Shown here in pieces: positions 3,904 to 44,704 of a stretch of 64,000 nt of DNA. The notes under the pieces were generated by a model. That model did not search any database. It saw only the letters and a list, made by a program, of their open reading frames with translations, and was not told the DNA's origin. The position numbers and the translations under genes are program-made. The stretch lies in assembly GCF_000018425.1 (NCBI RefSeq), contig NC_010424.1:1504501-1568500 (forward strand), in the 5' to 3' direction. Position 1 is the stretch's first letter. Each line of letters begins with the position of its first letter. This DNA is from Candidatus Desulforudis audaxviator MP104C (GTDB taxonomy: Bacteria > Bacillota > Desulfotomaculia > Desulfotomaculales > Desulforudaceae).

Positions 3904-4629
3904 TTACCCGAAGCGGTAGATTTCTTTCTTGAGGCGGTTGATGATCCGTTTTTCGAGGCGCGAGATGTAGGACTGGGAGATGCCCAGCAGGTCGGCCACT
4001 TCTTTCTGCGTCTTTTCTTCACCGTTGTTCAGGCCGAAGCGCAGTTCCATGATCTTGCGTTCACGCTGGGACAGCTTCTGGAGAGCCAAGCGGAGTAACT
4101 TGTGATCCACTTCCATCTCCAGGTCTTTATAGATGATGTCGGAGTCGGTGCCCAACACGTCCGAAAGCAAGAGTTCGTTGCCGTCCCAGTCTATGTTCAG
4201 CGGTTCCTCGAAGGAGATTTCCCCGCGGACCTTGCTGTTGCGGCGCAGGTACATCAGAATCTCGTTTTCGATGCAGCGTGAAGCATAGGTGGCCAGCTTG
4301 ATTCGTTTCCGGGGGTCGAAGGTGTTTACGGCCTTGATCAGGCCGATGGTGCCGATTGAAACCATATCCTCGATGCCGACACCGGTGCTCTCAAACTTGC
4401 GCGCGATATACACCACCAGGCGTAGGTTGCGCTCGATCAGGGTGCTGCGCACCCCGTGGTCGCCGGCCTCCAGACGGCTGATCAACCCCGTCTCCTCGTC
4501 CACCGTGAGCGGTGGCGGCAATGTCTCGCTGCTGCCGACATAGTGACCCTCGGGATGATAACCGACGCTCCGCAGGAGCCTGACCGCCAGTAATCGCAGG
4601 TAAAGCCTGATTTGCCAGGCTTGACGCAC
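3904..4629 (-). CDS. sigE: Mother-cell RNA polymerase sigma factor SigE (pro-protein)
   Basis: A 241-residue sigma factor with an N-terminal pro-sequence of roughly 30 residues (basic, amphipathic) followed by [18 protein letters not shown], which aligns with the SpoIIGA cleavage region of pro-sigma-E. Region 2 ([21 protein letters not shown]) and region 4 ([20 protein letters not shown]) are intact. It runs early mother-cell transcription. The GTG start has GGGGGG 7 bases upstream and lies 15 bases after the spoIIGA stop, so protease and substrate are one operon. Confidence 0.95.
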
Positions 4630-37518: not shown

Positions 37519-38685
37519 TCAAAAGACAATGGTCTGTCGCCGCACCCACACGTTGCACAGAAGACCCAGCGCCGCCAGGGTGAACATCATGGAACTCGGT
37601 CCGTAACTGAAAAGCGGCAGCGTGATCCCGGTAACCGGCATTATCCCCGCCGCCATGCCCACGTTGGTCAGGATGTGGAAGGCCAGCATCGACACCACGC
37701 CGGTAGCCATCAGGGTGCCGCACAAATCCTTGGACTGCCCGGCGATCCGCAAACCCCGGTACAGAACGACGAAATAGAGCGTCAACAGGAAAACCACACC
37801 AACGAAGCCAAGTTCTTCGGCCAGCACCGAAAAAATGAAGTCGGTATGCTGTTCGGGCAGGAAGTTCAGCTGGTTCTGAGTGCCGCTGAAAAGCCCCCGG
37901 CCCCAGAGGCCCCCGGCGCCGATGGCGATCTGGGACTGGATCATGTGATAACCGTCCTTGTGCCAGTCGCTCCAGGGATCAAGAAAAATCGTCAACCGCG
38001 TGATCTGGTAGCTTTTGAGGGGAATCCAGATCCCGTAGTTCAAGTGCGCCCAGATCCAGAGCACCATCCCCGACAGCCCCGCCAGCGTCAGTCCCCCCAG
38101 CAGCAGCGGGCGGGCACCGGCGACGAAGAGCATTCCCAGGGTGATGGCAATGAATACGAGCGCTGTGCCCAGGTCGGGCTGCGCCAGAATCAACAACATC
38201 GGCACCCCGACGTAGGCGAAGGCCGGCAGGAGATCCCGGAAGCGGCTGAGCTGCCCCTCGCGCTCGGAAAGAAACACCGCCAGCCCAATGATCACCACCA
38301 GCTTGGCGAATTCTGACGGCTGGAACATCAACGGTCCGAGCTGTATCCACCGCCGAGCGCCTCCGGCCGAATGACCGACCGCGAACACCGCCAGGAGCAA
38401 GGCTAGGTTTACCACGTAGAGCAACCGCGTGTACCGGGCCAACTCCTCATAACGCCAGAAAAGGAAAAAACCAAACGCCGTCACTCCCAGGGTAATGCCC
38501 AAGAGCTGCTTCCACAAAAACCCGAAACCGGCTTCTCCTGGAAGGCTGGTCACCTGGGTGGCGCTGGTGACGGTGACCAGACCCAGCGCAATGATTGCCA
38601 TCGCGGCCAGAATCAGGGTGTAATCGAGATTTTTAAGTATCTTCCTGTTGCGGCTGATTTCCCACACCCCGGCTTTTTCCCCCAT
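37519..38685 (-). CDS. rodA: Rod shape-determining SEDS glycosyltransferase RodA
   Basis: A 388-residue SEDS protein with about ten membrane helices: RRWIQLGPLMFQPSEFAKL, LAQPDLGTALVFIAI, EQHTDFIFSVLAEELGF and GITLPLFSYGPSSMM. It makes side-wall glycan with PBP2, encoded upstream by mrdA. A strong terminator separates it from minE, so it should have its own promoter. Assignment to RodA rather than FtsW rests on position next to mre-min. Confidence 0.92.
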   Translation of the reverse strand: MGEKAGVWEISRNRKILKNLDYTLILAAMAIIALGLVTVTSATQVTSLPGEAGFGFLWKQLLGITLGVTAFGFFLFWRYEELARYTRLLYVVNLALLLAVFAVGHSAGGARRWIQLGPLMFQPSEFAKLVVIIGLAVFLSEREGQLSRFRDLLPAFAYVGVPMLLILAQPDLGTALVFIAITLGMLFVAGARPLLLGGLTLAGLSGMVLWIWAHLNYGIWIPLKSYQITRLTIFLDPWSDWHKDGYHMIQSQIAIGAGGLWGRGLFSGTQNQLNFLPEQHTDFIFSVLAEELGFVGVVFLLTLYFVVLYRGLRIAGQSKDLCGTLMATGVVSMLAFHILTNVGMAAGIMPVTGITLPLFSYGPSSMMFTLAALGLLCNVWVRRQTIVF

Positions 38686-38707: not shown

Positions 38708-38728
38708 AAAAAGGGGGGTTGCCCCCCC
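38708..38728 (-). terminator. Rho-independent terminator after minE
   Basis: On the minus strand GGGGGG-CAA-CCCCCC is followed directly by TTTTT (38712-38708). It lies 16 bases after the minE stop and closes the mreBCD-mrdA-minCDE unit. Confidence 0.85.
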
Positions 38729-38743
38729 TGTTCTTTTCTCCGG

Positions 38744-39016
38744 CTAGATATTGGCGGCCCTTTTCATCTTCCTGATCGGAATGTTGGCCACCAGGGCCAC
38801 TTGCTTGTCCACGTGTTCGAGGCTTACTTCCAATCCTTTGTCGTCTATTTCCATATACTTGGAAATCACTTCAACGATCTCGTTTTTCAGAAGTTGCAGC
38901 AGTTGTGGGGAAATGTCGGCCCGGTCGTGGATCAGCACCAGGCGCAACCGCTCTTTGGCAACATTCTTGCTGCCGGGACTTTCCCTGCCTAAAAGGCGGG
39001 CCAGGAAATCCAACAC
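38744..39016 (-). CDS. minE: Cell division topological specificity factor MinE
   Basis: A 90-residue MinE: amphipathic N-terminus MLDFLARLLGR, the MinD-stimulating stretch AKERLRLVLIHDR, and the C-terminal dimer domain (LLKNEIVEVISKYMEID). It activates the MinD ATPase and confines MinCD to the poles. Bacillus lacks it, but spore-forming Clostridia often keep it. GTG start. Confidence 0.95.
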   Translation of the reverse strand: MLDFLARLLGRESPGSKNVAKERLRLVLIHDRADISPQLLQLLKNEIVEVISKYMEIDDKGLEVSLEHVDKQVALVANIPIRKMKRAANI

Positions 39017-39863: not shown

Positions 39864-40250
39864 CTAGTTTTTGCCCTGGCGCTCCCCGCCGGGCAGGAAG
39901 GTTTCAATAACCACAGTCCCGTCTCTTACCCTGGCAATCTCCGGTTGGTTGGGGTTGAATACTTCCCCGTCGGGTGAACGGGAAATGTGATCGGCAATAC
40001 GCAACTGAGTGGGACGCAGGCGGAAAGCAACGATGACCGCCCGCTCGTCGCCCGCGGCACCCGCCTGTACCGTTCCCCGCAACACTCCCATCACGATCAC
40101 GTTGCCGGCGGCCGTCACTTCAGCCCCCGGGTTGACATCACCCAGAATTACCACATTGCCCTCAAAACGTACACTCTGACCTGAGCGGAGAGTACCCTCC
40201 ACCATTTTGGTCGGGGGCTCGATACCACCAAGCGCGTATTGCCGGGCCAT
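39864..40250 (-). CDS. minC: MinC C-terminal domain protein (N-terminal domain absent)
   Basis: A 128-residue protein equal to the C-terminal beta-helix of MinC (TLRSGQSVRFEGNVVILGDV, VMGVLRGTVQAGAAGDERA, LRPTQLRIADHISRSPDG). That domain dimerises and binds MinD. The roughly 100-residue N-terminal domain that inhibits FtsZ in other MinC proteins is missing: only 113 bases separate it from mrdA, a stop codon lies in frame directly before the ATG, and GAGGTGG 6 bases upstream supports initiation there. So this is a genuine short form, not a frameshift of a full gene. Confidence 0.8.
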   Translation of the reverse strand: MARQYALGGIEPPTKMVEGTLRSGQSVRFEGNVVILGDVNPGAEVTAAGNVIVMGVLRGTVQAGAAGDERAVIVAFRLRPTQLRIADHISRSPDGEVFNPNQPEIARVRDGTVVIETFLPGGERQGKN

Positions 40251-40363
40251 TCACTTCCACCTCACCATCTAGAAGAGAGGTTCTACGGTGAAAAACCAAA
40301 TCCTGCTGAATCACCCGCTGTATTTTCCCTGTTATTTTGCCGAAAGCTCTCATTCTCGGCCGC

Positions 40364-42337
40364 TTATTCTCCGTTTTGTGTCAAAAAACCAAAATAGGCG
40401 TCCATGATCGTCCGGGCTACCGGAGCCGCGGCCCGGCTGCCCGGCCCGCCGTGTTCCACGACTACGGCGATGGCGATTTCCGGCTCCTCATATGGGGCAA
40501 AGGCCACGTAGAGCCCGTGGCTATCCCGTCCCCATACCTCAGCGGTGCCGGTTTTGCCGGCGGTGGTCACCGGAAAGTCGAAAAATGATCCGTAAGCCGT
40601 GCCGCCGGGCTGGTTTACCAGGCGCATCCCCTCCCGGAGAATATCCAGGTTCTCGGGAGAGACCGAAACCCTTCTCCGGAGTTCGGGCACGGCCTCTTTG
40701 ACGACCCGGCCGTTCGGGTCGGTCACCCGCTGCACCAGGTAAGGCCGGTAAAGGTAACCCCCGTTCGCGATTGCCGCTACATAGTTGGCCAGCTGCAGGG
40801 GCGTATAGTTGTTCAGGCCCTGACCGATCGACATATTAAGGGTATCGTAGTCCCGCCACAAAAGGTCCCAGGCGTAGCGGTCGTACTGTGCTTGAATCTT
40901 GGCCCTTTCCCGCTCCCGCTCCCGCTTGAGTTCCTCCCGCCGGGCCTCATCGGTGCCCGGTAGTTGCGACCGGTAATGTTCTTCAATCGCTTCGAACTGC
41001 GGCCCGAAGCGCCGGTCCAGCTCCGCTTGAACCATCTTTCGCTTGTACTCCGCCGTGGGCAACACGCCAGCGGCTTCCGCGGCAAGTTCAATGCCGGTCC
41101 GCTCACCCAATCCGAAGTCGTGGGCCATGCGGAAGATGTTCTCCGGACCGGTGCGCAGGCCGGCAGCCAGGAAGAAAGTATTGCACGAAACTTGAATCCC
41201 GCGGACCACGTCCACCCGGCCGTGGGCACCGAGACAATTGTACCGCTGCCCCTGGTGGTAGAAGTAGCCCGGGTCGGTGACCGCGAACCGGCGGTCGATC
41301 TTCCCGCTTTCGAGCGCCGCGGCGGCAACCACCATCTTGAAGGTGGAACCCGGCGGGTAATCGCTCTGGATGGCCCGGTTCAAAAAGGGCCCTTCCGGAG
41401 ATGTCAACAGCACCCGCGCCTGTTCCGCGCTCAAGTCCCCGGCAAACATCCTCGGGTCGTAGGCGGGGTAACTGGCCAGGGCCAGGACCGCGCCGCTGCG
41501 CACGTCGATGACCACCGCCGAAGCCGCACGGCAGTCTCGGTACCCTTCTTTCTGCAGGCTTTCCACAATCCGGGCCAGCGCCTCTTCGGCCGCCCGCTGG
41601 ACTTCGAAATCGATGGTCAGGGTCAGGTCGTGACCGGGAACCGGGTTTTTCACGCCCAGACTGCGCACCGGCCGGCCCACCGCATCCACCTCCAACTGAC
41701 GTGCACCTGGTATTCCCCGCAATTCCCGCTCCATGGCGTGTTCCAGCCCAGCCTGACCGAAAACATCACCCCGGCGGTACCCGTCCGCTTGGTACCGCGC
41801 CAACTGGTCGGGCTGGATCTCCCGGATGTACCCCAACACGTGTGCCAGAAAGTTACCGTAGGGATACTCGCGCATTGGCTCGAAGTCGATCACCACGCCG
41901 GGCAGCTCCATCTGCGCCTCCTCGATGCGGGAGACGATTTCCAGGGAAACGTCCCGCGCCAGGCGGATCGGTTCATAACGCCTCAGGCTGTGGTTGTCGA
42001 TCGCGTCCCAGAGTTCTTCGGGCGTGCGGCCCAGAATGGCGGCGAGTTTTTCCACCACTGGTTCCAGTTCCTCGCGGGACTGGCCGAGGTTCACCAGGGA
42101 AACGGCGTACAGCGGCCGGTTTCCCACCAGTTTCACCCCGTTCCGGTCGTAAATCTCTCCCCGCGGCGCGCTGATCGTGATCAGGCGCAAGGAGTTCTCC
42201 CGGGCCAGGGTCCGGTAGTGTTCGGTTTCGATCAACTGCAAATAGGCCACCCGGCCGACAAGCACCAGAAAAACTAGGGCTATGATGACGACCAGTACGT
42301 TGGTTCTTTTGGCTATGCTTTTCTTATCCACGGACAT
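40364..42337 (-). CDS. mrdA: Penicillin-binding protein 2 (MrdA)
   Basis: A 657-residue class B transpeptidase for side-wall synthesis. One membrane helix (LVVIIALVFLVLVGRVAYL), dimerisation domain (PRGEIYDRNGVKLVGNRPLY), and active-site motifs STFK (Ser331), SCN (Ser384) and AGKTGTAEVWG (about 600). Between SCN and KTGT an Arg/Glu-rich coiled-coil-like insertion of about 55 residues (432-490) precedes NMSIGQGLNNYTPLQLANY. Partner of RodA. The mreD gap is 8 bases. Confidence 0.93.
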   Translation of the reverse strand: MSVDKKSIAKRTNVLVVIIALVFLVLVGRVAYLQLIETEHYRTLARENSLRLITISAPRGEIYDRNGVKLVGNRPLYAVSLVNLGQSREELEPVVEKLAAILGRTPEELWDAIDNHSLRRYEPIRLARDVSLEIVSRIEEAQMELPGVVIDFEPMREYPYGNFLAHVLGYIREIQPDQLARYQADGYRRGDVFGQAGLEHAMERELRGIPGARQLEVDAVGRPVRSLGVKNPVPGHDLTLTIDFEVQRAAEEALARIVESLQKEGYRDCRAASAVVIDVRSGAVLALASYPAYDPRMFAGDLSAEQARVLLTSPEGPFLNRAIQSDYPPGSTFKMVVAAAALESGKIDRRFAVTDPGYFYHQGQRYNCLGAHGRVDVVRGIQVSCNTFFLAAGLRTGPENIFRMAHDFGLGERTGIELAAEAAGVLPTAEYKRKMVQAELDRRFGPQFEAIEEHYRSQLPGTDEARREELKRERERERAKIQAQYDRYAWDLLWRDYDTLNMSIGQGLNNYTPLQLANYVAAIANGGYLYRPYLVQRVTDPNGRVVKEAVPELRRRVSVSPENLDILREGMRLVNQPGGTAYGSFFDFPVTTAGKTGTAEVWGRDSHGLYVAFAPYEEPEIAIAVVVEHGGPGSRAAAPVARTIMDAYFGFLTQNGE

Positions 42338-42345
42338 CCCCGTTT

Positions 42346-42840
42346 CTATGGAATCCGCAAGAGTCCCCTGGTGCTGGAAAGGTAAAACCGGCGGTGGAAC
42401 AGGAGAGCGACGGCAGCGTTATACACCCCGCTGGGAATGATCAATCCCCACCACGCCTCTCCCGGGAGGATGGTCACGCCCAGAAACAGCAGCAGTAGGT
42501 ACCGGATCCCCTCGACCAGGATGGTGGCCAGAAAGGCGATGCCGGCCACCACGAAATGATTTTCCTTGAACAGCCGGATGTGCCCCAGTCCGACCACATA
42601 GCCGGACGCGGCGACCGCCAGGGCATTCAACCCCAGGTAATAACCAGACAAGAAATCATGGGCCAACCCACCCAGAAAACCCAAAAAAGCCCCTTCCCTG
42701 GGGCCGTTGAAGATGGCGTAGTACACAACCAGAACCAGGACCAGGTCCGGCTTCACGCCCGCCACCCGAATGAACTCCAGCACCGTGGATTCCAGGAGCA
42801 ACGCCAGTCCCAGCAGCAATACCAGGATAAGAATACGCAA
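42346..42840 (-). CDS. mreD: Rod shape-determining membrane protein MreD
   Basis: A 164-residue protein with four to six hydrophobic helices, including PDLVLVLVVYYAIFNGPREGAFLGFLGGLAHDF cut short to the MreD-type PREGAFLGFLGGLAHDF segment. It is a membrane scaffold of the elongasome. TTG start 6 bases after the mreC stop; the order mreB-mreC-mreD is canonical. Confidence 0.88.
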   Translation of the reverse strand: MRILILVLLLGLALLLESTVLEFIRVAGVKPDLVLVLVVYYAIFNGPREGAFLGFLGGLAHDFLSGYYLGLNALAVAASGYVVGLGHIRLFKENHFVVAGIAFLATILVEGIRYLLLLFLGVTILPGEAWWGLIIPSGVYNAAVALLFHRRFYLSSTRGLLRIP

Positions 42841-42846
42841 AACGTC

Positions 42847-43671
42847 CTAGCCCCTCGGGACGGAATTGAGAATAATCAGCACCTCTTCTAGACGATTAAA
42901 ATCCACCAGCGGCGAAACCTCCGCGGTCTGAGTCAAACCCGCCGCATCTTTCTCGGTAGAAATAATGCAACCCACCGGAATACCCTTGGGCACCTCCCCC
43001 AGCCCGGAGGTCACCACGTATTGCCCGCGTTCCACCTTAGCGTCCCGGGAGAGATAGAACATCCTCAGCGGCTGTGTCCGGTCTAGCACACCCTTTACCA
43101 CTCCCGGGGTGCGGGTTTCCTGGACCATAGCCCCCACCCCGCTGCGAGGGTCGGTGATCAGAAGCACATCGGACGTATTGGGGGCCACCGCGATTACGCG
43201 GCCCACCAACCCGGCCGGCAGGACCACCGCCATCCCCCGCTCGACACCGTGATTCGCACCCCGATTCACCTTAACCTCTCCGAACCAGTTGCCGGGGTTG
43301 CGGCCGATGACGTCGGCCACCAGCATTTTGTAGCGGGCATTCTCGTCCCGGTAGTCCAACAGCTCCCGGAGGCGCTGATTTTGGATCCGGTACTCCCGGA
43401 GGGCGACCACTTCCCCCTCCAGGTCGCGGATCTGTCGTCGCAGTTCTTCTACCTCCGGATCGCCGCCAAACAAAAAGATGCTCTGGAATAGGTCGCGCAC
43501 ATGGTTTCCGGCAAACGTGACTCCAGCCTGTACAAAACCCGAACCGTCCCGCAGACCCGTCTCCAGAACAGTTAGTTCCGCCCGTTCCAAACCGGTGAGT
43601 TGCATCATCACCAACAGGAATAACACCAGAATACCGGACGCCAGGAGTTTTCTTATCCGGGAGCGCTTCAA
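42847..43671 (-). CDS. mreC: Rod shape-determining protein MreC
   Basis: A 274-residue bitopic protein: N-terminal membrane helix (LLASGILVLFLLVMMQL), coiled coil (EELRRQIRDLEGEVVALREY), then the beta-barrel domain with VIGRNPGNWFGEVKVNRG, VVLPAGLVGRVIAVAPNTS and VTSGLGEVPKGIPVG. It links MreB to PBP2. TTG start directly after the mreB stop (1 base gap). Confidence 0.93.
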   Translation of the reverse strand: MKRSRIRKLLASGILVLFLLVMMQLTGLERAELTVLETGLRDGSGFVQAGVTFAGNHVRDLFQSIFLFGGDPEVEELRRQIRDLEGEVVALREYRIQNQRLRELLDYRDENARYKMLVADVIGRNPGNWFGEVKVNRGANHGVERGMAVVLPAGLVGRVIAVAPNTSDVLLITDPRSGVGAMVQETRTPGVVKGVLDRTQPLRMFYLSRDAKVERGQYVVTSGLGEVPKGIPVGCIISTEKDAAGLTQTAEVSPLVDFNRLEEVLIILNSVPRG

Positions 43672-43672
43672 A

Positions 43673-44704
43673 TCACACCACCTTCTTGGATGAGATCAAC
43701 ACCTTGCGTAAGACATCGATGTTCTCCAGCACCCGCCCGGAACCGTAGGCCACCGCCAACAGCGGCTCTTCGGCCAAGTGCACGGGCATCTGGGTTTCCT
43801 CGCTGACCAGGCGGTCCAGCCCCCGCAGGAGCGCCCCGCCACCGGCCATCATAATCCCGCGGTCCATGATGTCCGAGGCCAGTTCGGGCGGGGTCTTTTC
43901 CAGAGTTTGCCGGATGGCGTCCAGGATGGCACTCACCGGTTCGGAAAGCGCCCGGTAAATCTCGGCGGAAGTTACAGTCACTGTCTTGGGCAGGCCGGAA
44001 ACCAGGTCCCGGCCCCGCACCTCCTCGGTCTCCTGGTGTTCCAAGGGGTAGGCCGTGCCGATCTTGATCTTCAGTTCCTCGGCGGTACGCTCACCGATCA
44101 TCAGGTTGTAGTTGCGCTTAACATGTTGGATGATCGCCTCGTCCATCTCGTCGCCGGCCACCCGGATCGAACGGCTGGTTACAATCCCCCCCAAGGAGAT
44201 CACCGCCACCTCCGTCGTGCCCCCGCCCACATCGACGATCATTGTGCCGGTCGGTTCGTGCACCGGCAAACCGGCCCCGATGGCGGCCGCCATCGGCTCC
44301 TCAATCAGATAGCACTCACGGGCGCCGGCCGCGAGCGCCGCCTCCCGGACGGCCCGCTCCTCCACCGCGGTGACGCCGGACGGAACGCCGATCACCACCC
44401 GCGGCCGGATCAGAAAGGTCCTGCCGCGCAGCGCCTTGTTGATGAAGTACTTGATCATGCTCTCGGTAGTGTCGAAATCGGCGATCACGCCGTCCTCCAT
44501 CGGGCGGATGGCCACGATGTTGCCCGGGGTGCGTCCAATCATCTGCTTGGCCTCCTCACCCACGGCCAGGATCCGCCCGCTGTCCTTCTCAATCGCCACT
44601 ACAGACGGCTCGCGCATCACAATGCCCTTTCCTTTTACGTACACCAGGGTGTTCGCGGTACCCAAATCAATACCCATATCCCTGGAGAAAAACGCGATCG
44701 CCAT
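43673..44704 (-). CDS. mreB: Actin-like rod shape-determining protein MreB
   Basis: A 343-residue actin homologue with phosphate-1 motif [19 protein letters not shown], the DIGGGTTEV-type [17 protein letters not shown] and the adenosine motif [16 protein letters not shown]. It guides side-wall synthesis. It heads the mre-mrd-min unit; a gap of 25 bases separates it from radC, so the block could be read from further upstream. Confidence 0.97.

Follow-up and report, generated by a model that had tools for sequence, protein, structure and literature searches.

In most accounts, MinC is a single protein that links an FtsZ-inhibiting domain to a MinD-binding domain. The canonical two-domain form (TIGR01222; E. 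coli, T. maritima 1HF2, B. subtilis) combines the N-terminal inhibitory domain with a C-terminal domain of beta-helix fold that bears the motif RSGQ, and its gene sits beside minD and minE. According to the accessible text of PMC3618327, both domains act jointly: the N domain meets the H10 region of FtsZ, while the C domain meets MinD and the FtsZ tail. The C domain is also held in the solved MinC–MinD assemblies of Aquifex aeolicus (4V02) and Pseudomonas aeruginosa (6RIQ). A Gram-positive spore former with MinC, MinD and MinE is found in C. difficile, where MinCDE occurs with DivIVA, as set out in the available part of PMC4905992.

The window analyzed here, a stretch of 64,000 nucleotides, belongs to a genome of a single contig of 2,349,476 bases. 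Its min operon encodes a MinC that shares the C-domain sequence, the RSGQ motif and the company of minD and minE with the canonical protein, but it lacks the N-terminal FtsZ-inhibiting domain, and the genome has another MinC gene, at a separate site, whose product contains both domains. Unlike in 4V02 and 6RIQ, the C domain alone is here a natural gene product. The available part of the C. difficile account (PMC4905992) mentions neither an N-less nor a second MinC, in contrast to this case. In the open literature, covered as titles and abstracts and with subscription papers mostly outside it, no N-less operonic MinC or paired MinCs were described for these bacteria.

The short minC gene and its operon

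The features of the locus are as follows; the names mrdA, mreD, mreC, mreB and rodA are those that we take to apply, and mrdA was also named in the sequence-only reading.
43673-44704, minus strand: mreB (open reading frame; order conserved in related loci)
42847-43671, minus strand: mreC (open reading frame; order conserved in related loci)
42346-42840, minus strand: mreD (open reading frame; order conserved in related loci)
40364-42337, minus strand: mrdA, penicillin-binding protein 2 (open reading frame; position conserved in related loci)
40251-40262, minus strand: in-frame TGA and AGGTGG ribosome site (sequence)
39864-40250, minus strand: short minC, 128 aa, C-terminal domain only (open reading frame and PF03775)
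40176-40187, minus strand: MinD-binding motif RSGQ, residues 22-25 (translation; role according to the accessible part of PMC5548801)
39039-39839, minus strand: minD (TIGR01968, 381.3 bits, cut-off 212.9; sole over-cut-off match in this genome)
38744-39016, minus strand: minE (PF03776, 1.5e-27; TIGR01215, 84.2 bits, cut-off 49.3; one match in the genome)
37519-38685, minus strand: rodA (open reading frame downstream of minE; position conserved in most related loci)
C1:1401158-1401784 including the stop (L002:1198-1821), outside the window: long minC (MinC_N and MinC_C)

The span 39864-40363 consists of the short minC and an intergenic stretch. The sequence-only reading had described a minC without its N domain in an otherwise complete min set, preceded directly by a stop, provided with a ribosome site and separated by 113 bases from mrdA upstream, and all of this is borne out. 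On the minus strand, the sequence across the start reads ...AGGTGGAAGTGAATG. The TGA (40251-40253) is in frame and abuts the ATG (40248-40250), and the AGGTGG site (40257-40262) lies 6 nt ahead of it; with both signals in place, the start codon is firm. MinD and MinE are normal, as had been supposed.

The MinC_C profile (PF03775) matches residues 16-116 of the short protein at 6e-34, covering the whole profile, and TIGR01222 gives 105.3 bits against a cut-off of 95.25. PF05209 (MinC_N) was absent from the Pfam search of this protein, and 34 aligned short MinC proteins gave zero PF05209 matches at E up to 0.01. Since, according to PMC3618327 (2013), Gram-positive MinC escaped the Pfam MinC_N model then in use, an N-domain profile of the lineage itself was added; its best E against 65 short rows was 2.3. 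We therefore class the protein as a MinC paralogue that consists of the C domain only, and not as a full MinC.

An AlphaFold model built with 34 sequences (pLDDT 85.4, pTM 0.77) is all beta and takes the right-handed beta-helix form of a MinC C domain, with no C-terminal helix; residues 1-9 and 122-128 fall below 50. It matches 4V02 (Z 21.5, rmsd 4.4, 116 aligned), 1HF2 (Z 19.7, rmsd 3.4, 115 aligned), 5XDM (Z 18.6, rmsd 2.6, 109 aligned) and 6RIQ (Z 18.1, rmsd 1.9, 104 aligned), so the predicted structure resembles the C domains of both solved MinC–MinD assemblies. As modelled, the C-domain fold of the short protein is complete. Arg172 of E. coli MinC is an FtsZ-tail contact. It aligns with Thr60 of the short protein, and valine is the commonest residue at this position in short MinCs (0.69 of 65 rows). 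A contact of the short C domain with the FtsZ tail, the other suggestion of the sequence-only reading, is possible, and it would therefore have to bypass that residue.

Two further observations concern the window. In the gap between rodA and minE, positions 38712-38729 form a hairpin of a G-run and a C-run followed by T-rich sequence, on both strands, which is the strongest terminator-like site in the stretch scanned; the operon promoter scan returned 2 sites, against 2.0 expected. A sigma-E (sporulation) gene over the curated cut-off lies at 3913-4554 on the minus strand.

A second, two-domain MinC and the distribution of the pair

The MinC_C search of this genome yields two over-cut-off matches. 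One is the short minC; the other, at C1:1401461-1401760 on the plus strand, lies 143 kb from it within the long minC, whose product carries MinC_N (4.3e-15) and MinC_C (1.4e-21). The long protein measures about 208 aa from a TTG or 220 aa from the first GTG, and the corresponding frame of the sister genome likewise begins at TTG. The gene faces a neighbour which we take to be of NUDIX type. The same NUDIX-type gene lies within 1.5 kb of the long minC in 20/20 in-order stretches (L066:8836 onward, L067-L085), and clustering recovers it in 19/20.

Thus, the cell encodes a complete MinC, yet outside the min operon. The sequence-only reading had proposed that this organism may carry a MinC unable to poison FtsZ by the known route; with a two-domain MinC on the same chromosome, the FtsZ-inhibiting domain is not lost from the cell, and that interpretation therefore changes. 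The N domain present elsewhere in the genome is joined to a C domain. A stand-alone N domain is rejected more generally, as a C domain accompanies the N domain in 60/60 of the N-bearing rows located outside the operon.

Across 60 genomes (this one and relatives of the order), a short MinC_C frame is present in 57, MinC_N exceeds its cut-off in 57, and both MinCs occur together in 54, this genome being included in each count. The short frames measure 128-187 aa, apart from a 350-aa frame that gave no N-domain match. Relatives with a full-length minC at this locus had been named as what would overturn the reading of the gene; instead, the short copy recurs in 57/60 genomes, and a sequencing or assembly error is excluded on that ground. 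Only the long form is found in G031, G048 and G052, and only the short form in G001 (73% complete), G045 and G059. Wherever the flanks of a short row were inspected, minD adjoins the short minC, and the usual order is mreB-mreC-mreD-mrdA-minC-minD-minE-rodA.

A phylum sample of 149 genomes gives a wider view. Among the matches listed, 61 of 62 single-match genomes have a frame of at least 207 aa, the exception being G188 with 137 aa; 9 more single-match genomes have no row among those matches. Nineteen two-copy genomes, chosen from this sample for having a second match, all combine an N-less operonic copy with an N-bearing solo copy. A separate set of 20 loci was drawn from single-match genomes with long frames and is thus full length by choice.

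The N domain is absent from 46 of 80 named operonic loci (Desulforudaceae, Desulfotomaculaceae, Peptococcaceae, Desulfallaceae, Moorella, Sulfobacillus and others) and present in 34 (Syntrophomonadaceae, Heliobacterium, Natronincolaceae and others). Members of Desulforudaceae are among the named loci closest to the present one. The MinC_N survey covered 36 of the 46 short loci and 14 of the 34 N-bearing ones. A separate N-bearing MinC occurs in 33/36 of the short-operon genomes: 31 have one PF05209 match, necessarily outside the operon, while G265 (8.3e-8) and the Sulfobacillus genome G269 (5.3e-8) carry another MinC_C gene, with an N domain visible to our own profile only. The N profile derives from solo and full rows, which it then recognizes; for these rows, independent support comes from PF05209. 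In the search with the profile, rows L003_12, L083_10, L143_21 and L205_2 were dropped, as were rows with identical last 100 residues, which left 147 rows. The remaining three short-operon genomes are MAGs without an N-bearing MinC. All 14 genomes with the N domain in the operon copy match MinC_N, and a second match appears in only one of them. The genome sets overlap, some named genomes being identical to the handle-labelled relatives, and the less biased samples are the single-match set of the phylum and the MinC_N survey of named loci.

In some N-less operonic MinCs (genome rows of L158 and L172; L102 and L104), the N domain is replaced by a long N-terminal tail without conservation; in L102, L104 and L100 these tails measure 205-237 aa.

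MinD (TIGR01968) exceeds its cut-off once each in 13 of 16 genomes searched and is absent from 3; a second MinD serving the second MinC is rejected, as none was over cut-off in these 16. The long-only genomes G031, G048 and G052 have neither MinD nor MinE over cut-off. In G031 and G048, mreC is missing as well, so that the absence of the cluster could equally well be due to an assembly gap or to loss. Conversely, the short copy is the sole MinC_C match in seven genomes: G188, G059, G045, G078, G245, G260 and G267. G188 (loci L103 and L174; 1.5 Mb, 99% complete) has MinD, MinE and the short MinC only, with zero MinC_N matches, and may represent a Min system that lacks the N domain. Another genome, G115 (C133, C185), has two MinE genes, yet a single MinC_C match.

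Sequence constraint in the two copies

For comparison, the rows were classed as S (short operonic), L (long solo) and F (full operonic, a single full-length MinC). In 48 two-copy genomes, mean C-domain identity is 0.67 for S and 0.41 for L, and S exceeds L in 1127/1128 pairs; such pair counts are not independent, since the rows are related. Divergence was gauged by bands of MinD identity; the F rows represent lineages different from those of S and L. At MinD identity 0.6-0.7, C-domain identity is 0.63 in S, 0.54 in F and 0.34 in L, and N-domain identity is 0.41 in L and 0.26 in F. The corresponding values at 0.7-0.8 are 0.67, 0.58 and 0.41 for the C domain, with 0.43 in L and 0.29 in F for the N domain. 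At 0.8-0.95, where F provides 3 pairs, the C-domain values are 0.75 in S, 0.72 in F and 0.53 in L, and the N-domain difference is not seen (L 0.50 vs F 0.55). In 231/231 F pairs, conservation of the N domain is lower than that of the C domain; among the L pairs, it is higher in 613/1770.

Among individual residues, Q82, R84, R91, P93 and E104 stand at 1.00 in S, 0.91-1.00 in F and 0.30-0.52 in L, and core glycines such as G37, G55, G59 and G64 are still at 1.00 in L. The exact RSGQ motif is found in 63/65 S, 46/60 L and 20/22 F rows (S vs L, Fisher p 0.0008, with relatedness ignored).

A tree of 110 C-domain rows over 115 columns places the short copies among the full operonic ones, and most long copies apart from them, with exceptions. 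The free search needs 4 label changes for S and 5 for L. With three very long rows dropped, the AU test does not reject a single clade for S (p 0.905) or L (p 0.931), and holding either as one clade gives a likelihood above that of the free quick search. One duplication with one loss of the N domain is thus allowed by the tree, not proven.

Possible readings of the two MinC genes

The reading that we consider slightly better than an even bet is duplication followed by subfunctionalization, with the short protein as one half of a two-gene MinC that acts as a mixed short/long inhibitor. An ancestral full-length minC would have duplicated, and the copy in the mre-min operon would have shed its N domain to become a dedicated MinD-binding C-domain protein. 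The second copy would have retained the FtsZ-inhibiting N domain while its own C domain drifted. The long MinC may then reach the MinD-covered membrane by pairing with the short one, either as C-domain heterodimers or in mixed MinC–MinD assemblies or polymers. In such an inhibitor, a constant MinD-binding part would be joined by a separately encoded poison part, and their ratio would set its strength.

This proposal starts from the observed architecture, its wide conservation, at most one over-cut-off MinD per genome searched, and the complementary constraint. The constraint pattern is what subfunctionalization predicts, and it suggests that the poison job lies with the long copy and the MinD-side job with the short one. 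Two jobs apparently selected in two proteins, one MinD and a relaxed long-copy C domain make a mixed complex the simplest account. A stronger statement is more tentative, with chances a little under even: in a widespread group of Clostridia and relatives, the inhibitor would be bipartite, composed of a poison-free MinD-binding MinC and a MinD-weakened FtsZ-poisoning MinC, functional only when mixed.

An unlikely alternative treats the short MinC as a buffer, which would compete for MinD against the long MinC (and against MinE), damp inhibition and tune the oscillator; on this account, the long MinC alone would be the working inhibitor and would bind MinD via its own C domain. Exact RSGQ in 46/60 long copies suggests that many, even most, may bind MinD unaided, and the short copy lies in the minD-minE operon in every short row with its neighbourhood read. 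In the accessible part of PMC5548801, a lone E. coli C domain, when overproduced, lengthened cells slightly. A pure competitor, however, leaves the relaxed C domain of the long copy unexplained, as well as the genomes that seemingly keep the short copy alone.

A little less probable still are separate roles, in which the short MinC would serve vegetative division with MinD and MinE through an FtsZ-tail contact, and the long MinC would act elsewhere, for example at the sporulation septum. The two genes are unlinked, and the seven short-only and three long-only genomes constitute the main evidence for looser or separate roles. Sigma-E is over cut-off in 33/33 two-copy genomes examined vs 4/7 short-only ones. 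However, it is also found in 10/10 genomes examined with a full-length operonic MinC and in the short-only G188, G045, G245 and G260, so spore formers can do without a long MinC at a second site. Its presence in 2/3 long-only genomes (absent from G052) fits this role poorly, and a missing sigma-E proves little in incomplete MAGs; the sporulation link is weak and contradicted. Arg172 of E. coli is not retained at the aligned position, either.

Lastly, a decaying gene, or a frameshift, upstream relic or assembly error concealing the N domain, has a negligible chance. A 63-aa frame (40162-40353, minus strand) does overlap the short minC start in another frame, but no Pfam family matches it at E up to 1. 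Moreover, the short form is found again in 57/60 genomes and 46/80 named loci, with a C domain that shows stronger conservation than the one in full-length MinC.

The two copies also carry a warning for annotation. The short protein passes TIGR01222, whereas the long one, at 94.4 bits, falls just below the cut-off of 95.25. A name-based survey could therefore count the wrong gene as the only MinC, and automatic naming may miss the two-domain MinC of this very genome.

In these bacteria, selection appears to have split the two jobs of MinC while the operon keeps minD and minE. The short and long MinCs represent a natural separation-of-function pair, with which one could ask whether mixed MinC–MinD assemblies are relevant in vivo and what share of the inhibition comes from each MinC domain. 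If the tentative bipartite inhibitor is real, the cell would tune inhibitor strength by the ratio of two unlinked genes.
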